Source: a bacterium
Lineage (GTDB): Bacteria > Myxococcota_A > UBA9160 > UBA6930
DNA length: 32,310 nucleotides
NCBI GenBank assembly: GCA_024228115.1
Contig: JAAETT010000337.1
Location: 1-32,310, forward strand
Direction: 5' to 3'
This document shows positions 23,059 to 31,508 of the stretch, in pieces. The notes under the pieces are model-generated. The model saw only the letters and a list, made by a program, of their open reading frames with translations, was not told the DNA's origin and made no database searches. The translations under genes and the position numbers were made by a program. Position 1 is the first letter of the stretch; each line of letters opens with the position of its first letter.

Positions 23059-24066
23059 ATGCAGATTGCTCAGCCCGTACTGGTCACCGGAGGGACGGGT
23101 TTCATCGGACGGCGGCTGATCGATCGGCTGCTCGAAATGAACCTGGAAGTCGTGAGCTTCGCCTTGCCGGGCGAACCGGTTCCGGACCATTGGGGCGAGA
23201 AGGTCAAACTCCTGCGAGGCGACATCACGAAGGCGGAAGACGTCCGCGCGGCCATGGCCGGCATCCAGACGGTCTTCCATCTTGCGGCGGTGGTCGGCAT
23301 GGGCGCCTACGACGTGCATTGGGCGGTTACGGTCGAAGGCAGCCGCAACGTCTATGACGCGGCGCTGGCCAACGGCACGAAGGTCGTCCTGGCCTCATCC
23401 ATCGTGGTGTACGGAGACCAGATCCAGAATGGGATCTGCCATGAAGGGCTCGACCACGGCAGCCACCAGGGTGCCTACAGTCGCGCCAAGATGGCCCAGG
23501 AGAAGCTTGCGCTCGCCTATCGTGCGGATCGGGGCCTGGACCTCGTGGTCGTGCGCCCCGCGAATGTGTATGGGGTGGGCAGTGGACCGTGGGTCGAGGG
23601 GATGCTGGGCTTGATCCAAACGGACATGCTTCCCGTCGTTGGTGATGGTTCCGGCAACGCGGGCCTGGTGCATGTCAACAATCTCGTCGATGCGTTCCTG
23701 CTAGCCGCGGGCGACCCGATAGTACTCCCAGCGCGCTCCCTGGGGATCGATCGCCCAGACCTTGTTCTGGCTGGCATAGCAGCAGGTCTGCTCGTCCTCG
23801 ACCGAATCTACCAGGCCGGCGGACTTCAGACGATCGGTGGCGGCATGCACGTCGGCGTCGTCGAAGACTTCCACACCCAGATGATTGAGACGCTCGTCGG
23901 CCTCGGGGTTCTCGAACAACACGAGCTTGAGGGGCGGTTTCTCGATGGCGAAGTTCGCATAGCCGGGCTTGCGCTTGTTGGCCTTTACGTCGAAGAGCTT
24001 CGAGTAGAACTCCACGGCCTCGTCGAGATCCTTGACGTTCAGTGCGAGTTGGACACGCATGTGTGA
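23059..24066 (+). pseudogene. NAD-dependent epimerase/dehydratase, 3' end lost at the arsenic-island border
   Basis: Codons 1 to about 219 encode an extended SDR: VLVTGGTGFIGRRLIDRLLE (NAD motif), DITKAEDVRAAMAGIQTVFHLAA, SSIVVYG, YSRAK (Tyr-x3-Lys catalytic pair) and RPANVYGVG, up to VHVNNLVDAFLLAAGDP at about 23715. From there the frame stays open to a TGA at 24066, but only by reading the antisense of the cadI/arsI gene, so about 115 residues of chance sequence replace the expected substrate-binding C-terminus. Intact relatives are about 320-340 residues. A GGAG lies 9 bp before ATG 23059. It may be expressed as a chimeric protein but is unlikely to be active. Confidence 0.7.
23701..24060 (-). 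CDS. CadI/ArsI-type VOC protein (C-As lyase-like), shortened C-terminus
   Basis: A 119-residue VOC protein: MRVQLALNVKDLDEAVEFYSKLF, YANFAIEKPPLKLVLFENP, RLNHLGVEVF and TCCYASQNKVW. The vicinal pair C93-C94 and K100 are the ArsI/CadI arsenic-binding signature. The metal triad reads Q4, H60, E112. ArsI cleaves the C-As bond of trivalent methyl- or aromatic arsenicals with Fe(II) and O2; CadI is the mycobacterial cadmium/arsenic-induced relative. The usual tail after WEVYTV is missing; the stop comes five residues after WEYYR, at the junction with the epimerase gene. ATG 24060 is preferred over GTG 24069 because AAAGG sits 8 bp upstream. It is last in the arsR-tauD-arsM operon. Confidence 0.82.
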   Translation of the reverse strand: MRVQLALNVKDLDEAVEFYSKLFDVKANKRKPGYANFAIEKPPLKLVLFENPEADERLNHLGVEVFDDADVHAATDRLKSAGLVDSVEDEQTCCYASQNKVWAIDPQGARWEYYRVARG

Positions 24067-24108
24067 CACCTTTGCTTGAATTGGACTCGTTGTCGAGGTT
24101 GAGGAAGT

Positions 24109-24954
24109 TCAGCCCTTGCGAGCGAAGATGTGAAGGCTCGTCACCGAGCCGGCGTATTCCTTCACCTGTTCCGGCGAGAGGCCGAGTTCTTCTACGACGC
24201 CCTGAACGATCGGATCGTCGAGTGCAATCGCATCGAGAAACGACGACTCGCGATCCACCCGGATCTCGGCGAAACCCGCCTTCCGAATCGTCTCCAGGTA
24301 CGTCTCTCGAAGGCTCGCTCCCCCCACGCAGCCGAGGTAGGCATCGACGCTCGCAACCACGGCCGCCGGAAGCTCTTGCTCCAGCACGATATCGGAGACC
24401 ATGACCCTGCCGCCGGGCCGCAAGACACGAAACGCCTCCTTGTAGACGCTCTCTTTGTCGGGAGAGAGGTTGATCACGCAGTTGGACAGGATGACGTCGA
24501 CGCTCTCGTCCTCGATCGGCAGATCCTCGATATGGCCCTCCCGGAACTCGACGTTGGTCACACCCGTCTTGCGCGCGTTCTCTCGTGCCTTTTCGAGCAT
24601 GGCCGGCGTCATGTCCACACCGATCACCCGCCCCGTCGGACCGACCTGCCGTGCGGCCAGAAATGAATCCATTCCCGCACCGGAGCCCAGGTCGACCACC
24701 GTCTCGCCCGGATGGAGGGCATCGATCGCGGTCGGATTCCCGCACCCTACGCCCAGGTTGGTCCCTTCCGGGACCGCAGAGAGCTGTTCATCGTCGTAGC
24801 CGATGCGGCGCGCCGCCTCGTTTGCGCGCTCGGTATCGTCGAAAGCTTCGACGACGCGGGTATAGCCTTCCTTGACCTGCTCGCGGAGCGCCTCGGCACC
24901 TTCGGCGCGGCGACGGGCCGGTGCGATTCCTGAACTCTCGGGATGGTTGCTCAT
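24109..24954 (-). CDS. arsM: arsenite S-adenosylmethionine methyltransferase ArsM
   Basis: A 281-residue SAM methyltransferase that methylates As(III) to mono-, di- and trimethylated forms. [41 protein letters not shown] contains the SAM motif and C71; [26 protein letters not shown] carries C159, and YLGCVGGA carries C209. These three cysteines match the As(III)-binding set of the algal enzyme; the extra N-terminal cysteine of four-Cys ArsM proteins is absent. GAAGGAA lies 8 bp before ATG 24954. It sits between the TauD-like dioxygenase and the C-As lyase-like gene. Confidence 0.95.
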
Positions 24955-24995
24955 GGTTCGTTCCTTCTTGAATGAAGTTTCGAGAGAATCAAAGC

Positions 24996-26042
24996 TCAGC
25001 CAGCACTCCCTGCGTTGGCTGCAGCAATATCGGCGGCGTCGGAAACGACACCCTCTTTCACGGGAATGCCCTGCTGGACGAAGACGTCACCGTCCGCCCA
25101 ATGACCATGTGCCGTGAGCCACATTCGGATCAGATGGCGCTTTCGCTCCGGCTCCTCGTGATCCTCGAAGGCGGTACGCATGTGCAATGCGGCGCTGTTC
25201 TTCAGGTAGGCGATCTCACCGGGAACGAACCGGAACTCGAAATGGAATTCCCGGTCGAGGGCAATCTCGTCGATCAAGTCGAGAAGCTGGACCTGTTCGG
25301 CGGAGAGGCGGGGCGCCTCGGCGTGGCGTTGCGCATTGCGGATGTACCACCCGATGTAGAAGAGGCGAAAGCGTTCCTCGTGGTAGGAACAGATGGGCAG
25401 GTTGAAGATCGGGGCTTCCCCTTCACTCTGCTCGTTGTTCCGATCCCAGGCGAACGGCTGGTAGAGAACCGGGATGAGATCGGGCCGGCGTCGCAGGATC
25501 TCGTTGTAGATCGCTCCGCAGCTCGCCAATCGGCTCTTTCCGCCCCACGGCGATTGCTTGAGGCATAGCAGCGCGACGATGTCCGATCCGTCGCTGTGAA
25601 AACCCAGTTCGATGTTCGTCTTGTAGAGCCGTTTGCCACGGTCGCCGGGGTTGGCGCCGACGTCGCGGATATGGCTCAGCAGATCGCCCGCCGCGTTCTG
25701 GGAAACGCCTGTGCCCATATGGGTGCCGATCCCCCAGTGGATGATCTCCATGTCTTGCTCGCTATAGCGGTCGATGGGGAGGCCCTTCACGTTGATGAAG
25801 CCAGCGCCCCGGTACAGCACGTGCATCCAACGAGCGATCGAGGGGTGAAGAGTTTCCAGCGGAAAATCGCTCTGGGTCAACTCGGTCAGCGGCTTGCCCG
25901 TTGCCTTCGCATGGGTGAGGGCGGCGTGGATGTCTTCGAGTTCGTCCGAGCTCAACGTGTGCTGCCAGTCGGATCGCAGGATGATGTCGGCAGACTTCCA
26001 GACAGTGGCGTCCTTGAGCGGCTCGTTGAGAATTTCGGTCAT
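24996..26042 (-). CDS. TauD/TfdA-like Fe(II)/2-oxoglutarate dioxygenase in the ars operon
   Basis: A 348-residue protein with the double-stranded beta-helix pattern of the TauD/TfdA family. [13 protein letters not shown] (about 78-90) is the usual N-terminal motif, GFHSDGSD gives H149 and D151, [15 protein letters not shown] gives the distal H287, and RHLIRMWL supplies the Arg (306) for 2-oxoglutarate. The start is ATG 26042, with AGAAGGAG just upstream; a longer frame to 26120 runs into arsR. It is the second gene behind arsR (29-bp gap) and 41 bp before arsM. I know of no established arsenic function for this family. Oxidation of a methylated or larger organoarsenical is a reasonable guess from context only. 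Confidence 0.82.
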
Positions 26043-26071
26043 CGTTTCTCCTTCTGGGTTCCTGGCCAGCG

Positions 26072-26392
26072 CTAACGATCCGTTTCGCTGCCGAGCTCGC
26101 AGCCATCCACACCCTGACAACAGTTCGCCGTCAGGAAATCGAGCAGACCACTCATCGCGGCGAAATCGGGGCTGTAGATCCGAGACCTCCCCTCGCGCGT
26201 GCAGCAGACCAGGCCCGCGCTCTTCAGCTCTTTCAAGTGGAAGGAAAGCGTCGCGGACGGGATGTCGAGAGCAGCGCCGATGGCGCCGGCGGGCAGCCCT
26301 TGCGGGCCCGCTTGGACCAGCGTCCGGAAGACGTCCAGGCGTGTCTCTTGAGCCAGTGCTGCAAGTGCGCTGATCACGATTTGTTTTTCCAT
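26072..26392 (-). CDS. arsR: ArsR arsenite-responsive repressor (CC-x5-C type)
   Basis: A 106-residue ArsR protein: ALAQETRLDVFRTLVQAGPQGLPAGAIGAALDIPSATLSFHLKELKSAGLVCCTREGRSRIYSPD is the winged helix. The C-terminal tail holds C91, C92 and C98 (NCCQGVDGC), the same spacing as the As(III) site C95, C96, C102 of Acidithiobacillus ferrooxidans ArsR. The alpha-3 ELCVC motif of plasmid-type ArsR is absent. ATG 26392 follows a promoter so closely that the transcript should be leaderless. It heads the dioxygenase-arsM-cadI operon and diverges from the ACR3 operon. Confidence 0.92.
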   Translation of the reverse strand: MEKQIVISALAALAQETRLDVFRTLVQAGPQGLPAGAIGAALDIPSATLSFHLKELKSAGLVCCTREGRSRIYSPDFAAMSGLLDFLTANCCQGVDGCELGSETDR

Positions 26393-26399
26393 ATTTCCA

Positions 26400-26427
26400 A
26401 TAGTATATAGATATCGAAACGTGTCAA
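26400..26427 (-). promoter_or_regulatory. promoter of the arsR operon
   Basis: On the minus strand, -35 TTGACA (26422-26427), 16-bp spacer, -10 TACTAT (26400-26405). The AT-rich spacer (CGATATCTATATA) is a likely ArsR-binding region, though I cannot define a clean dyad. Initiation would fall about 26393, at the arsR ATG. The 147-bp divergent region 26393-26539 must also hold the plus-strand promoter of the hydroxylase-ACR3 pair, which I cannot place with confidence. Confidence 0.6.
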
Positions 26428-26539
26428 GTGGCGAAACCGGATGAATTGCAACCGCTTCAACTAGTTGTTTTTACGCCGATTTTCACCATCCCAAAGCGGG
26501 CGCCGGGATTCTGGCAGCTGAAGAGAAGGAGAGACCGAG

Positions 26540-27115
26540 ATGGAAACCACTCTCGCCTTGGGTCTGCTGGCCCTGTTCGGCGTCCTCGAAACCCTGGCCG
26601 GCGCCTACTCGCGCGGGGAGTTCCGGCGTGACGACTGGATCATCAACCTTCCGAACCTCGGCCACCTGGCGATCATCGTGCGGCCAGCCATGGTCGGCAT
26701 CGTGGCCTTCCTGCTCGGAGGGCTCGCGCCCGAGTTCGAAGGAGCACTGGCTTCGACGCCTCTATCGATCGCCGTACTCGCCGTCCTGCTGCCCGACCTG
26801 TGGGGACGGCCATGGAAACTCCACCGTACCCACCACACGACGCCTAGCATGAAGGTTGGCGTGTCCTACCAGGAGAACAGCCTCTGGTTCGGCGAATGGA
26901 GCCACGGGCAGGGCAACTACGCTACGCTCGTGTTCCTCTACGACGTCCTCTTCGGAACTGCCGCCCTGCCCCACCATCCGCCCACATCCATCGGCATCGA
27001 AGACGATTCGAAAGACCCGTGGTACGTCCAGCTGTACTGGCCCTTCATGAAGGCCAGCGACCCGAGCAGCGATTTTGCAGCTGCTCCGCCGCGCCATCCG
27101 GTCTCGGACAGCTGA
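26540..27115 (+). CDS. sterol desaturase/fatty acid hydroxylase family protein, internally shortened
   Basis: A 191-residue protein recognisable as the membrane di-iron hydroxylase family by [25 protein letters not shown] (box H95-x2-H98-H99), [23 protein letters not shown] and the C-terminal [11 protein letters not shown]. Intact members are about 280-300 residues. The first His box (HxxxH) expected just before residue 95 and about 70-80 residues expected between F117 and G118 (transmembrane segment and part of the third His cluster) are missing, with no frame shift that would restore them. AAGGAG precedes ATG 26540. Its stop overlaps the ACR3 start (TGATG), so it may survive mainly as a translational lead for ACR3. 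Activity is doubtful. Confidence 0.7.
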
Positions 27116-28140
27116 TGGGCATCTTCGAGCGCTACCTGACGCTGTGGGTGACGGCTGCGATCGTTGCGGGGATCGCCCTCGGTGCGCTCCTGCCCGGCGC
27201 CTTTTCGGTCCTGGCCGATCTCGAGATCGCCCAGGTCAACCTGGTCGTTGCCGTTCTCATCTGGGTGATGATCTACCCGATGATGGTGAACGTCGACCTG
27301 GCGTCGCTTCGCCACATCGGCGATCGCCCGAAGGGTCTTACCATCACGATCATCGTGAACTGGCTGATCAAACCCTTCACGATGGTCGGTCTGGGCTTTC
27401 TCTTCTTCGAGGTCTTCTTCGAAGCCTGGGTGAGCCCTGCGGACGCCCGGGAGTACATCGCGGGGATGATCCTGTTGGGCGCTGCGCCCTGTACCGCGAT
27501 GGTCTTCGTCTGGAGTCACCTCACCCGGGGAGATCCGGCTTACACCCTCGTGCAGGTCTCGGTCAACGATTTGATCATGGTCTTCGCGTTTGCCCCGCTG
27601 GTCGCGCTGCTGCTGGGTGTCGCGGATGTGATCGTCCCGTGGTCGACGCTCTTGCTCTCGGTCGTGCTCTACGTGGTCGTCCCGTTGGTTGCGGGCTATT
27701 TCACGCGACGGGCATTGATCGACGAGGGCGGAGGCGAAGATCGCATCGCCGCGTTCAGTGCGAAGCTCAAGCCCTTTACCATTGTGGGTCTGCTCGCGAC
27801 CGTCGTTCTGCTATTCGCCTTCCAAGGGCCACGCATCCTCGATCAGCCCCTGTTGATCGCGATGATTGCGATTCCCCTGCTCGTCCAGAGCTACGGGATC
27901 TTCCTGCTCGGCTACGGATGGGCCTGGGCCTGGGGGCTGCCCTTCTCGATCGCCGCCCCGGCCGCCCTGATCGGCACGTCGAACTTCTTCGAGCTGGCTG
28001 TGGCCGTTGCCATCAGCCTTTTCGGGCTGGAGAGTGGGGCCGCACTCACGACCGTGGTGGGCGTGCTCGTCGAGGTACCCGTCATGTTGTCATTGGTGGC
28101 GTTGGCGAACCGGACGCAGGGGCACTTCCCGAGAGCGTGA
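27115..28140 (+). CDS. arsB: ACR3-family arsenite efflux permease
   Basis: A 341-residue inner-membrane protein with about ten hydrophobic segments. The conserved Cys in [17 protein letters not shown] and the [18 protein letters not shown] segment are ACR3 hallmarks, and [12 protein letters not shown] near residue 55 is also typical. It exports As(OH)3 (and sometimes antimonite) using the proton gradient. ATG 27115 overlaps the upstream TGA by one base, so translation is coupled. Frame-open sequence upstream to 26896 shadows the hydroxylase gene. The symbol acr3/arsB is used loosely for this family; it is not the ArsB fold of E. coli. Confidence 0.95.
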
Positions 28141-28254
28141 ATCGCCGCGGAAGCCGAGTCCGCCGAAAAGGTGTCCAGCCGGAGAACCCGGCCGAGCCGC
28201 CAGGACCGGAAATCATCTATGGTGAGACCGAACCCTCGAAAAGGAACTCCGCCA

Positions 28255-28701
28255 ATGACCGACTTCAGCAAGGTTCCGTGGATTGCCGACCACATCGAGC
28301 TCTACCGGACCGACCCGGAAAAGGCGCACATGTGGGATTCATCGGCAGTCGGCGGCACGGGATTTCTCCCGACGCTGCTGCTCACGACGATGGGTAGGAA
28401 GTCCGGCAAGCCGCGTGCGTTGCCGTTGATCTACGGCGAAGCCGGAAACAGCTACGTCATCATCGCGTCGAAGGGCGGCATGCCGGATCACCCTCTCTGG
28501 TACTTGAACCTCGAGTCGAACCCGGAATGTGAACTCATGGTGGGCCCGAAGGCAGTCTCCGCCCGGGCCCGCGTGGCCGAGGGCGAAGAGCGGGAGCGTC
28601 TCTGGAAGCGAATGGCAGAGATCTACCCGCCCTACGACCAGTACCAGACGAATGCCGGCGCTCGCACGATTCCGGTGATCGTACTCGACCCGGTGGGCTG
28701 A
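28255..28701 (+). CDS. deazaflavin (F420)-dependent nitroreductase family protein (DDN-like)
   Basis: A 148-residue split-barrel protein of the DDN/Rv3547 family. LLLTTMGRKSGKPRALPLIYGEAGNSYVIIASKGGMPDHPLWYLNLESNPECELMVG is the family core, which binds the F420 phosphate with the GRKSGKPR segment. Members reduce quinones, nitroaromatics or unsaturated ketones with F420H2. AAGGA lies 11 bp before ATG 28255. It starts 114 bp after ACR3 and probably belongs to the following catabolic genes rather than to arsenic resistance. Confidence 0.88.
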   Translation: MTDFSKVPWIADHIELYRTDPEKAHMWDSSAVGGTGFLPTLLLTTMGRKSGKPRALPLIYGEAGNSYVIIASKGGMPDHPLWYLNLESNPECELMVGPKAVSARARVAEGEERERLWKRMAEIYPPYDQYQTNAGARTIPVIVLDPVG

Positions 28702-28811
28702 TCGTCGACCGGGGCTCGGAACCAGCTGGATTCTGCTTCCCTCCAACTCGGCGGTGGCCTTGACCACGGCCGCATGGCGGCTCCCAGGAGCAGAGAACAG
28801 GAGACGGGATC

Positions 28812-30002
28812 GTGAAGGTATTGGCACTCGGCGGATGCGGAGGCATGGGGCGTCATGCGGTGCGGACGGCGATCGGCTTCGACTTCGTGCAGGAAGTGAT
28901 CGTTGCCGATCGGGACGGCGAAGCCGCCTCGAACTTCGCGAAGAGCTGCGGAGGCAAGGCCCGCGGAGTGCATGTGGACGTCACCGACGGCGTAGCCCTG
29001 GGCAAGCTCCTCGGGGATGCCGATGTCGTCCTCAATACGGTGGGCCCCTTCTACCGCTTCGGCGTGCCGATCCTCGAAGCGACCATCGATGCCGGCTGCC
29101 ACTACCTCGACATCAACGATGATTGGGAGCCAACGCTGGACATGCTGGCGCTCCACGGGCGCGCCGAAGATGCCGGTGTCACAGCGATCATCGGGCTCGG
29201 TGCGAGCCCCGGCATCTCGAACATGCTCGCGGTCAAGGCGATGGCCGGGCTCGACAGCGTCGACGAGGTGCTGACCGGTTGGAGTCTTGGCGAAATTGGC
29301 GATTCGCTGGAAGAAGAATCGTCAGCCACAGGAGGCCCGAGTGCCGCCCTCGTCCACTGGATGCACCAATGCTCCGGGTCGATTCGCGTGTGGCGAAACG
29401 GCGCGTTCGCGGACGTGCGCCCGGTCGAAGAACGCGCGGTCGATTTCCCGTCCATCGGTGCGGGCCGAGCCTGGTCGGTCGGCCACCCGGAAGCCATCAC
29501 GCTTCCGATGACCTTCCCCGAGATTGGCAGTTCGGCCAACCTGATGACTGGACCGGCCTCGCTGATGCGCGCCGTGGTCGAGCTTCGCGATGCGATCGAC
29601 GCGGGAGACCTCACGGTAGAGCAGGCCGCGCAGATGATGGCGCAGCCGATACCCGATGACATGAAGAAATCGATGCGGGCCGAGCGTGGCAATGCGAACG
29701 AACTTCCTCCGCTCTTCGCTCTGGCGACCGGAAGCAAAAGCGGTGCGCCGCGAAGCATCGGCGCAATGATCCTGGGCGCGCCGAGCGGTGGCATGGGCGG
29801 CGTCACCGGCATTCCCCTGGCCTTGGGGCTGCCACTCTTTGCGTCGGGCGAGGCCCCCCGTCGCGGCGTCTTCGCTCCCGAAGGCGCCGTCGATCCGGAC
29901 GCGTTCTTTGAAGCCCTGGCACCCTTCTGCCATGCACCAGGAGACGAGACACCCTTTGCTTCTGCAAGCGAGCTGATTCTCGTCACCACGGACGGTCGAT
30001 GA
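28812..30002 (+). CDS. saccharopine dehydrogenase-like NAD(P)-binding oxidoreductase
   Basis: A 396-residue protein with an N-terminal Rossmann domain: MKVLALGGCGGMGRHAVR is the nucleotide-binding loop, VIVADRD the second strand, and NTVGPFYRFGVPILEATIDAGCHYLDINDDW the usual saccharopine dehydrogenase NADP-domain segment, followed by GLGASPGISNMLAVKAM. The C-terminal 200 residues are family-typical but not diagnostic of lysine metabolism. The start is GTG 28812 with GGAG 9 bp upstream. True saccharopine dehydrogenases act in lysine metabolism; no such gene is nearby, so the substrate is left open. Confidence 0.82.
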   Translation: MKVLALGGCGGMGRHAVRTAIGFDFVQEVIVADRDGEAASNFAKSCGGKARGVHVDVTDGVALGKLLGDADVVLNTVGPFYRFGVPILEATIDAGCHYLDINDDWEPTLDMLALHGRAEDAGVTAIIGLGASPGISNMLAVKAMAGLDSVDEVLTGWSLGEIGDSLEEESSATGGPSAALVHWMHQCSGSIRVWRNGAFADVRPVEERAVDFPSIGAGRAWSVGHPEAITLPMTFPEIGSSANLMTGPASLMRAVVELRDAIDAGDLTVEQAAQMMAQPIPDDMKKSMRAERGNANELPPLFALATGSKSGAPRSIGAMILGAPSGGMGGVTGIPLALGLPLFASGEAPRRGVFAPEGAVDPDAFFEALAPFCHAPGDETPFASASELILVTTDGR

Positions 30003-30122
30003 GCCCATGCCGAATACGCTCAACTCCATCGTGATGGATCTTCCTGATCAACAGGAACACGTCGCTGCGGGGAATCCCCAGGCGCACTCATTCGAGTGCG
30101 TTCATCCATCCTGGCAGAGGCC

Positions 30123-31508
30123 ATGACGCGCAGACTGATTCGCGGAGGCTGCATCGTCAGCCTGGACCCCGACGTGGGAGAGATCCCTCGCGGCGATGTC
30201 CTGATCGAGAGCGGAAAGATCCTCGAGATCGGCCCCAGCATCGATGCGGGCGACGCCGAGGTCATCGACGCCAAGGACACCATCGTGCTTCCTGGCTTCG
30301 TCGACACCCACCGCCACATCTGGCAGGCGGCCATGCGGAGCATCACGGCGGACTGGTCGCTGATGGACTACTTCCGCGGCATCCGGATGCGGGCGGCGCC
30401 GGCCTTCCGCCCCGAAGACATGTACGCCGCCCAACTTGCAGGGGCACTGGAAGCCCTGGACGCCGGGGTCACCACCGTCGTCGACTACTGTCACAACCTG
30501 CTCACACCGGATCATGTCTCCGAATCCATTCGGGGACTGCAAGATGCCGGACTTCGCGCGGTCTGGTGCTTTGGCTTCAACACACCGCCCGGGACGACCT
30601 CGAAACCGAGCGACACCGAGGGGAAGGCAGAACTCGCCCACAAGATGGCTGCCGAGCACTTCGCGTCGAAGGACGCGCGGTTGACGTTCGGGATCGCACC
30701 CGAGGAGCCGGGACTCACGACACCGGAGCATTGCGAGTTCCAGTACCGGACCGCTCGCGAGTTGGATGCCCGCATCACGCAGCATGTGAACTGCCTGCGC
30801 ATGGGAAGCGACCCGGAAGAAGTCGCGAAGCTCCTCGGACCTCGCGGGTTGCTGGGACCTGACGTGCTGCTAGTCCATATGGGCTACACGACCGGCGACG
30901 AGTGGAAGATGGTCGCCGACGCCGGAGCGGCGGTCTCGTTCACGCCCGAGACCGAACTGCAGATGGGGATGGGCATCCCGCCCACCGGAGTCGTGAGACG
31001 CTTCGGCATCACCCCCACCTACGGGGCCGACATCGTCTCGAACAACAGCGGCGACATGTTCTTCCCGCTGCGCCTGGCGCTCCAGGTAGAACGCGGTGTC
31101 GCCAATGGTCCGATCGTCGAAGGCGGCTCGATGCCCGAAGGGGTGACCGTCAGTTGCCGGGAGATCCTCGAATGGGGAACGCTCGGCGGGGCAAAGGCCG
31201 TCGGCCTCGATCATCGAATCGGCAGCCTCGCGCCCGGCAAGCAGGCCGACCTCGTGTTGATCCGCACCGACGGCATCGGCTTCGCCGGCTGGAACGAGCG
31301 GGATCCGATCGCGAGCGTGGTGCTCCAGGCAAATGCCGGCATCGTCGACACCGTGCTCGTGGGTGGCGAGATCGTGAAACGGAATGGGAAGCTGTGCGCT
31401 GACGTGGCAGCCGCTCGTGAACTCCTGGCCACTGCGGTTCAGCACGTCGCAGAAGAGGCCGAGGCCTTGGGCGGCTTCCATGTTCCCGGCCAAGGCCTCG
31501 AGGTCTGA
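30123..31508 (+). CDS. amidohydrolase (TrzN/AtzA/MtaD-like deaminase or hydrolase)
   Basis: A 461-residue metal-dependent hydrolase of the amidohydrolase superfamily. Metal and catalytic positions are visible: H63-x-H65 in GFVDTHRHIW, H221 in ITQHVNC, H252 in LLVHMGYTT and D303 in YGADIVSNNSGDMF, matching the mononuclear subtype (AtzA, TrzN, S-adenosylhomocysteine/5'-methylthioadenosine deaminase). N-terminal IRGGCIVSLDPDVGEIPRGDVLIESGKI and C-terminal GSLAPGKQADLVLI complete the family. ATG 30123 is preceded by GGCAGAGG; an upstream GTG at 30096 is less likely. It is followed by the LLM gene after 1 bp, so they are co-transcribed. The substrate (N-heterocycle or amide) cannot be read. Confidence 0.9.
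   Translation: MTRRLIRGGCIVSLDPDVGEIPRGDVLIESGKILEIGPSIDAGDAEVIDAKDTIVLPGFVDTHRHIWQAAMRSITADWSLMDYFRGIRMRAAPAFRPEDMYAAQLAGALEALDAGVTTVVDYCHNLLTPDHVSESIRGLQDAGLRAVWCFGFNTPPGTTSKPSDTEGKAELAHKMAAEHFASKDARLTFGIAPEEPGLTTPEHCEFQYRTARELDARITQHVNCLRMGSDPEEVAKLLGPRGLLGPDVLLVHMGYTTGDEWKMVADAGAAVSFTPETELQMGMGIPPTGVVRRFGITPTYGADIVSNNSGDMFFPLRLALQVERGVANGPIVEGGSMPEGVTVSCREILEWGTLGGAKAVGLDHRIGSLAPGKQADLVLIRTDGIGFAGWNERDPIASVVLQANAGIVDTVLVGGEIVKRNGKLCADVAAARELLATAVQHVAEEAEALGGFHVPGQGLEV

Follow-up and report, generated by a model that had tools for sequence, protein, structure and literature searches.

TauD, the taurine dioxygenase of Escherichia coli, hydroxylates the carbon of taurine that lies next to the sulfonate, and the product then gives sulfite and an aldehyde. 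ArsI is a C-As lyase that acts on trivalent methylarsenite; it is iron-dependent, uses oxygen and is encoded in ars operons. ArsH, ArsP, ArsL/ArsQ and other accessory genes of ars operons likewise serve organoarsenicals, but none of them is a 2-oxoglutarate (2OG) dioxygenase. To our knowledge the bacterial enzymes that act on C-As bonds are few (ArsM, ArsI, ArsL, ArsS and BsnN), and we know of little on the aerobic breakdown of di- and larger alkylarsenicals. A study on the demethylation of dimethylarsenate in paddy soil states that the driving microorganisms had remained unknown (PMC10579292).

Here we describe a gene for a TauD/TfdA-family Fe(II)/2OG dioxygenase that is the second gene of an arsR operon, at positions 24996-26042 on the minus strand of the window (the whole 32,310-nt stretch of DNA that was analysed). 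The gene starts with ATG and encodes 348 aa. It matches the TauD domain PF02668 over profile positions 3-267 of 267 (E 2.3e-33; 116.7 bits against a cut-off of 27), and a search of the NCBIfam models gave no match. The first-pass annotation had read an intact HxD...H iron site from the letters, and the triad H149, D151 and H287 is indeed present and is invariant in 48/48 aligned sequences, comprising the 11 members of the clade described below and 37 other relatives. Two arginines after the last histidine, R302 (His+15) and R306 (His+19), are candidates for 2OG binding; R306 is invariant and R302 is replaced by Gly in G008. The AlphaFold model of the protein is poor, with a mean pLDDT of 62.6 and active-site segments below 50. 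The source genome holds a second homologue at E <0.001, which is 39% identical and lies outside any ars locus.

When solved chains in the PDB were searched by sequence, only FrbJ and 7n7v reached E 1e-3. The closest is FrbJ (PDB 5eqn; E 1.9e-44, aligned over residues 1-311), the Fe(II)/2OG phosphonate hydroxylase of an FR-900098-type phosphonate antibiotic biosynthesis cluster. FrbJ and the window protein have the triad and an RHLxRxW stretch in common, but a C-terminal tail (WADGDxFVQQGIP...GVxSD) and the residues K86, K141, W232 and K281 set the ars clade apart, and no phosphonate biosynthetic genes were recognised beside the dioxygenase in the window or the sister ars loci. The PF02668 domain and the triad are also common to TauD, but down to an E threshold of 0.001 the PDB sequence search yielded no chain of TauD proper, and the gene neighbourhood differs, being an ars locus and not a taurine or ssu locus; identity with taurine dioxygenase was thus not borne out. 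The first-pass annotation had held that closeness to a dioxygenase for taurine, 2,4-D or quaternary amines would speak against a role in arsenic metabolism, and no such closeness emerged, the nearest solved relative being a phosphonate hydroxylase. Nor does the protein have the VOC fold and vicinal cysteines of ArsI, which belong to its neighbour at 23701-24069. The outcome that we propose for the dioxygenase, C-As cleavage, would be shared with ArsI, but ArsI is a small VOC-fold protein of no sequence relation to it, and the two genes are often found side by side.

The gene order in the window is, as the first-pass annotation had proposed, arsR, dioxygenase, arsM, arsI; all four are on the minus strand, with gaps of 29, 41 and 39 nt. 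The ArsR repressor (26072-26392) has 106 aa and carries at its C-terminus a CC-x5-C tail of the AfArsR kind (Cys95/96/102 type). ArsM (24109-24954, 281 aa) retains C71, C159 and C209 and scores 313 bits with the arsenite methyltransferase model NF008823 (cut-off 263), while remaining far under the NCBIfam cut-offs for arsinothricin and arsenosugar ArsM. The ArsI/CadI-family lyase (23701-24069, 122 aa, vicinal CC; start GTG, or ATG at 24060) scores 174 bits with NF041414 (cut-off 116). Divergent from arsR, an ACR3 arsenite efflux transporter is encoded on the plus strand at 27115-28140 (TIGR00832, 389 bits, cut-off 283).

A sigma-70-like promoter, TTGACA-16-TACTAT, is predicted from the sequence before arsR (26400-26427, minus strand) and is the only one found in 23600-26700. 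As about 0.8 such promoters are expected by chance, its conservation is the better argument: TTGACA-N16-TAnnnT recurs in relatives at the same distance to the arsR ATG. The arsR start codon lies a few nt past the -10 element, a pattern also kept in relatives, and this may leave the transcript with hardly any leader. Overlapping the -10 is an imperfect inverted repeat (26391-26415, minus strand), of the form ATATTTCCA...TTGGAAATAT and clearest in G069 as ATATTTCCAATATATTGGAATTAT, which is conserved before arsR genes both with and without a dioxygenase and is the probable ArsR operator. An Rfam scan of the window gave no hits. The dioxygenase gene has the orientation of arsR and lies downstream of it and of its promoter, with no promoter of its own found in 23600-26700, which points to a component of the ars operon. 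Among the ArsRs compared, the CC pair at the C-terminus is invariant, and a third cysteine beyond it occurs in 9/9 dioxygenase-linked ArsRs versus 3/11 of the others examined. AfArsR binds As(III) through Cys95, Cys96 and Cys102, whereas SpArsR, without the third Cys, responds to MAs(III) only (PMC11868830). Read by analogy with this pair, the third cysteine of the dioxygenase-linked repressors suggests that the operon is probably As(III)-responsive.

Homologue searches of the order (80 genomes) and the class (91 genomes) revealed a sharp break in identity, with 11 proteins at 54-100% and none of the rest above about 45%; a clade profile showed the same break (611 versus 419 bits). These 11 proteins formed one clade with support of 100/99 in an IQ-TREE phylogeny of 48 sequences. 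Nested within it, nine ars-located members formed a clade of their own (86/81), with G017 and G074 as a sister pair. Residues specific to the 11 include, among many, N84, S114, I230 and E276 and the basic K86, K141, K281 and H267 alongside W232, and the C-terminal tail is equally specific. The four basic residues were gained by the clade and are invariant there, and on sequence grounds would suit an oxyanion substrate. Outside the clade, the nearest relative (44%; G030, L060:8880-9914) adjoins methylmalonyl-CoA-mutase-like and MeaB-like genes and not ars genes. No clade member was detected outside the class in a phylum-wide search (379 genomes by protein, 378 by clade profile), in 72,556 plasmid records (best match at most 39% identity) or in viral contigs; genome contigs were also scanned with exact 8-mers of the query, which 60%-identical members could escape. 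Within this range of searches, the clade is known only from uncultured members of one bacterial class.

A search of gene neighbourhoods, which the first-pass annotation had suggested as a check, placed 9/11 clade members in ars loci versus 0/37 other homologues (Fisher p 3e-8, which serves as a guide since the genomes are related and not independent, and many of the 37 were viewed with 1.5 kb of flank only). A single change on the tree is enough to account for the ars-locus label, and together these results indicate that the linkage is more than chance. A predominance of homologues outside ars loci had been named in advance as evidence against the arsenic reading; the wide family shows this pattern, but the clade does not. 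An arsenic link for the family in its entirety was rejected, since none of the 37 other homologues sampled has ars genes next to it. Within the clade, G017 and G074 keep the clade-specific residues but have no visible ars locus. A decayed twelfth copy in G043 (L078:4260-5159), with its middle missing, lies beside an arsR without the third Cys.

In most loci whose contig reaches arsR, this gene stands directly 5' of the dioxygenase with gaps of about 10-40 nt, and acr3 is divergent in five loci (the window, G066, G065, G081 and G083). The partners on the 3' side vary, being arsM-arsI in the window, arsI-arsM in G006 and G008, arsM (fused to the dioxygenase) in G007, arsI in G083, none in G066 and a soxC-cytochrome c pair in G081. 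The order in G036 is arsR-arsI-dioxygenase. One contig of G065 starts inside the dioxygenase and continues as arsM-arsI-soxC-cytochrome c, and a second ends in F420-acr3-hydroxylase-arsR; the two probably join. No arsM is nearby in G066, G081 and G083. The occurrence of acr3-arsR-dioxygenase with neither arsM nor arsI alongside in G066 and G081 suggests that the core of the system produces or handles arsenite, the substrate of ACR3.

Between clade members dN/dS is about 0.09-0.17 (NG86), which points to purifying selection on the dioxygenase. In comparison of the window with G065, ArsM, ArsI and ACR3 are about 94% identical while the dioxygenase is only 65% identical, the window copy being closer to those of G066 (84%) and G081 (82%). 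This indicated that the dioxygenase has been swapped in place between operons. In addition, copies from distant families interleave on the dioxygenase tree, implying that the cassette moves horizontally.

A fusion of the dioxygenase with ArsM was found in G007 (L052:9433-11262), where a single 609-aa open reading frame joins residues 1-345 of the dioxygenase to ArsM, which begins at its residue 16. Pfam detects both domains, the tail typical of the clade is present in full and ArsM retains its cysteines. This fusion comes from one MAG and an assembly cause is possible, but the spacer, the stop and the ArsM start are all missing with no frameshift. It would imply a shared substrate or product. 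In G006 (L051:1337-2533), ArsI and ArsM also lie in one frame, which contains an internal ATG and may encode an ArsI-ArsM fusion, and matches to ArsR, ArsI and ArsM share a 582-aa open-frame length at G079:C232:26184-27857, perhaps a longer fusion.

A second type of partner is a SoxC-cytochrome c pair. The stop of the dioxygenase in G081 overlaps the start of SoxC by 4 nt (ATGA, L057:9258-9261), a cytochrome c follows (L057:8224-11115 overall), and this SoxC is above the TIGR04555 cut-off. The pair follows arsI at the operon end in G065 (L050:2382-4224), and in G066 C5 (L081:6600-8668) it follows a short in-frame decayed dioxygenase remnant (MNGILNEPLEDA...). Identity to the G081 SoxC is 83% for the G065 protein and 81% for the G066 protein, whereas the remaining SoxC compared are at 47-56% and lie away from the dioxygenase. 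For the clade, we rejected the pair as a constant component, as it is beside an intact copy in only 2/9 loci and is absent from beside the intact dioxygenase in the window, G066, G083, G006, G007, G008 and G036. A further explanation, that the pair is a mere flank of the insertion site (G066 C5 corresponds to the flanks of the window without the ars cassette), is countered by the in-frame remnant before SoxC, which indicates that a dioxygenase once stood at this site. The association may support release of sulfite from a sulfonate or a role for the molybdoenzyme with arsenicals.

We regard a role for the enzyme in arsenic metabolism as well supported and quite probable. Our preferred reading, to which we assign a probability of roughly 40%, is that of an oxidative C-As lyase, by analogy with TauD. 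The arsenic-responsive dioxygenase would hydroxylate the arsenic-adjacent carbon of a methyl- or alkyl-arsenical, as TauD does on taurine, and the resulting alpha-hydroxy-arsenical would collapse to an aldehyde and arsenite, which would then be exported by ACR3 or methylated by ArsM. Beside ArsI, such an enzyme could widen the range of organoarsenicals handled. The enzymatic activity, the arsenic-bearing substrate, the position of attack and the release of arsenite are the parts of this scheme that we infer. It accounts for the constant association with ACR3 and a repressor of the As(III) type, for the optional presence of ArsI as a second C-As lyase and for the coupling to ArsM, and we count in its favour that the phosphonate substrate of FrbJ is an oxyanion with the same geometry. 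Two observations count against oxidative C-As cleavage: G017 and G074 keep the clade residues without a visible ars locus, and the SoxC-cytochrome c of G081 and G065 is not explained by it. The ArsM fusion is also compatible with an enzyme acting after ArsM. Thus the dioxygenase could tailor the ArsM product in a biosynthetic pathway, converting the methyl of a methylarsenical to a stable hydroxymethyl or other organoarsenical, and the adjacency of the two genes elsewhere and the tailoring role of FrbJ fit this proposal. We judge it unlikely because the window ArsM conforms to the ordinary methyltransferase model and scores far under the arsinothricin and arsenosugar cut-offs, genes of the ArsL, ArsS or phosphonate type were not noticed next to the operon and three loci have no nearby arsM; the suggestion in the first-pass annotation that an organoarsenical is made here loses weight for the first of these reasons. 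The fusion would also suit an enzyme that oxidises arsenic itself, turning trivalent methylarsenicals, as are the products of ArsM, into less toxic pentavalent forms by ferryl oxygen-atom transfer, in the manner of ArsH but with another fold. The ArsR, of a type for trivalent arsenicals, agrees with this, but Fe/2OG enzymes of the TauD/TfdA family mostly attack C-H bonds, the clade has no cysteine of its own (C160 is present in most non-clade relatives too) and MAs(III) is readily oxidised by air, so that selection for an enzyme is less obvious; direct oxidation of arsenic seems rather improbable to us.

The SoxC-cytochrome c pair could be accommodated by a dioxygenase for sulfonates or other organosulfur compounds under arsenic control, in which freed sulfite would serve thiols during arsenic stress and be oxidised by SoxC and the cytochrome. 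Membership of the TauD family and the position of the pair after the dioxygenase (G081), ArsI (G065) and the decayed remnant (G066) are in keeping with this proposal, which we nevertheless hold to be improbable. SoxC is missing at seven intact loci and, of the 18 SoxC genes in the class, the majority lie away from the dioxygenase; SoxC has an apparent Tat signal and the dioxygenase has none; the ArsM fusion is left unexplained; and TauD proper did not appear at E 1e-3 among solved structures. Lastly, mobility of the cassette, evident from interleaved families and differing flanks, together with decay of the gene in G043 and at one G066 site, could reflect an unrelated dioxygenase that merely rides along. 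Its retention right behind arsR across several downstream arrangements, the purifying selection, the replacement in place by a diverged allele and the single ArsM fusion make such a passenger very unlikely.

The claim of the first-pass annotation that the locus holds an undescribed oxidative member of the ars genes is supported by the existence of a clade specific to ars loci, by the promoter shared with arsR and by the ArsM fusion. The chemistry that it put forward, oxidation of a methylarsenical or formation or cleavage of an alkyl-arsenic bond, is a reasonable hypothesis. A search of the open-licence literature on ars operons, C-As lyases and organoarsenical biosynthesis found no TauD-family dioxygenase among ars genes, which is weak evidence of novelty, and we regard the dioxygenase as a genuine and probably new accessory component of ars operons. 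It is possible, though rather doubtful, that it represents an undescribed branch of arsenic metabolism based on 2OG-dependent oxygenation of organoarsenicals, coupled to methylation in the dioxygenase-ArsM protein and, in one lineage, to SoxC and cytochrome c, so that oxidation of organoarsenicals might feed a respiratory chain. An arsR-controlled 2OG dioxygenase fused to ArsM would widen the chemistry of ars operons and offer a concrete, easily assayed candidate for alkylarsenical breakdown. The clade suggests an undescribed step in the microbial making or breaking of carbon-arsenic bonds.

Several features of the window concern the surroundings of the cassette. Between arsR and acr3 lies a 191-aa remnant of a fatty-acid-hydroxylase-type (PF04116) gene (26540-27115, plus strand), which has an internal gap or deletion relative to an intact 280-aa copy in G065 (L080:5895-6734). 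An NAD-dependent epimerase gene (PF01370; 23047-23710, plus strand) seems truncated at its 3' end, where arsI lies, and this end is likely to be the cassette boundary. On the other side, plus-strand genes for an F420-type oxidoreductase, a saccharopine dehydrogenase and an amidohydrolase (28249-31508) have syntenic counterparts in G066 C5, where the ars cassette is missing. In G081, which belongs to a different family of the class, the amidohydrolase gene is again found flanking the cassette.
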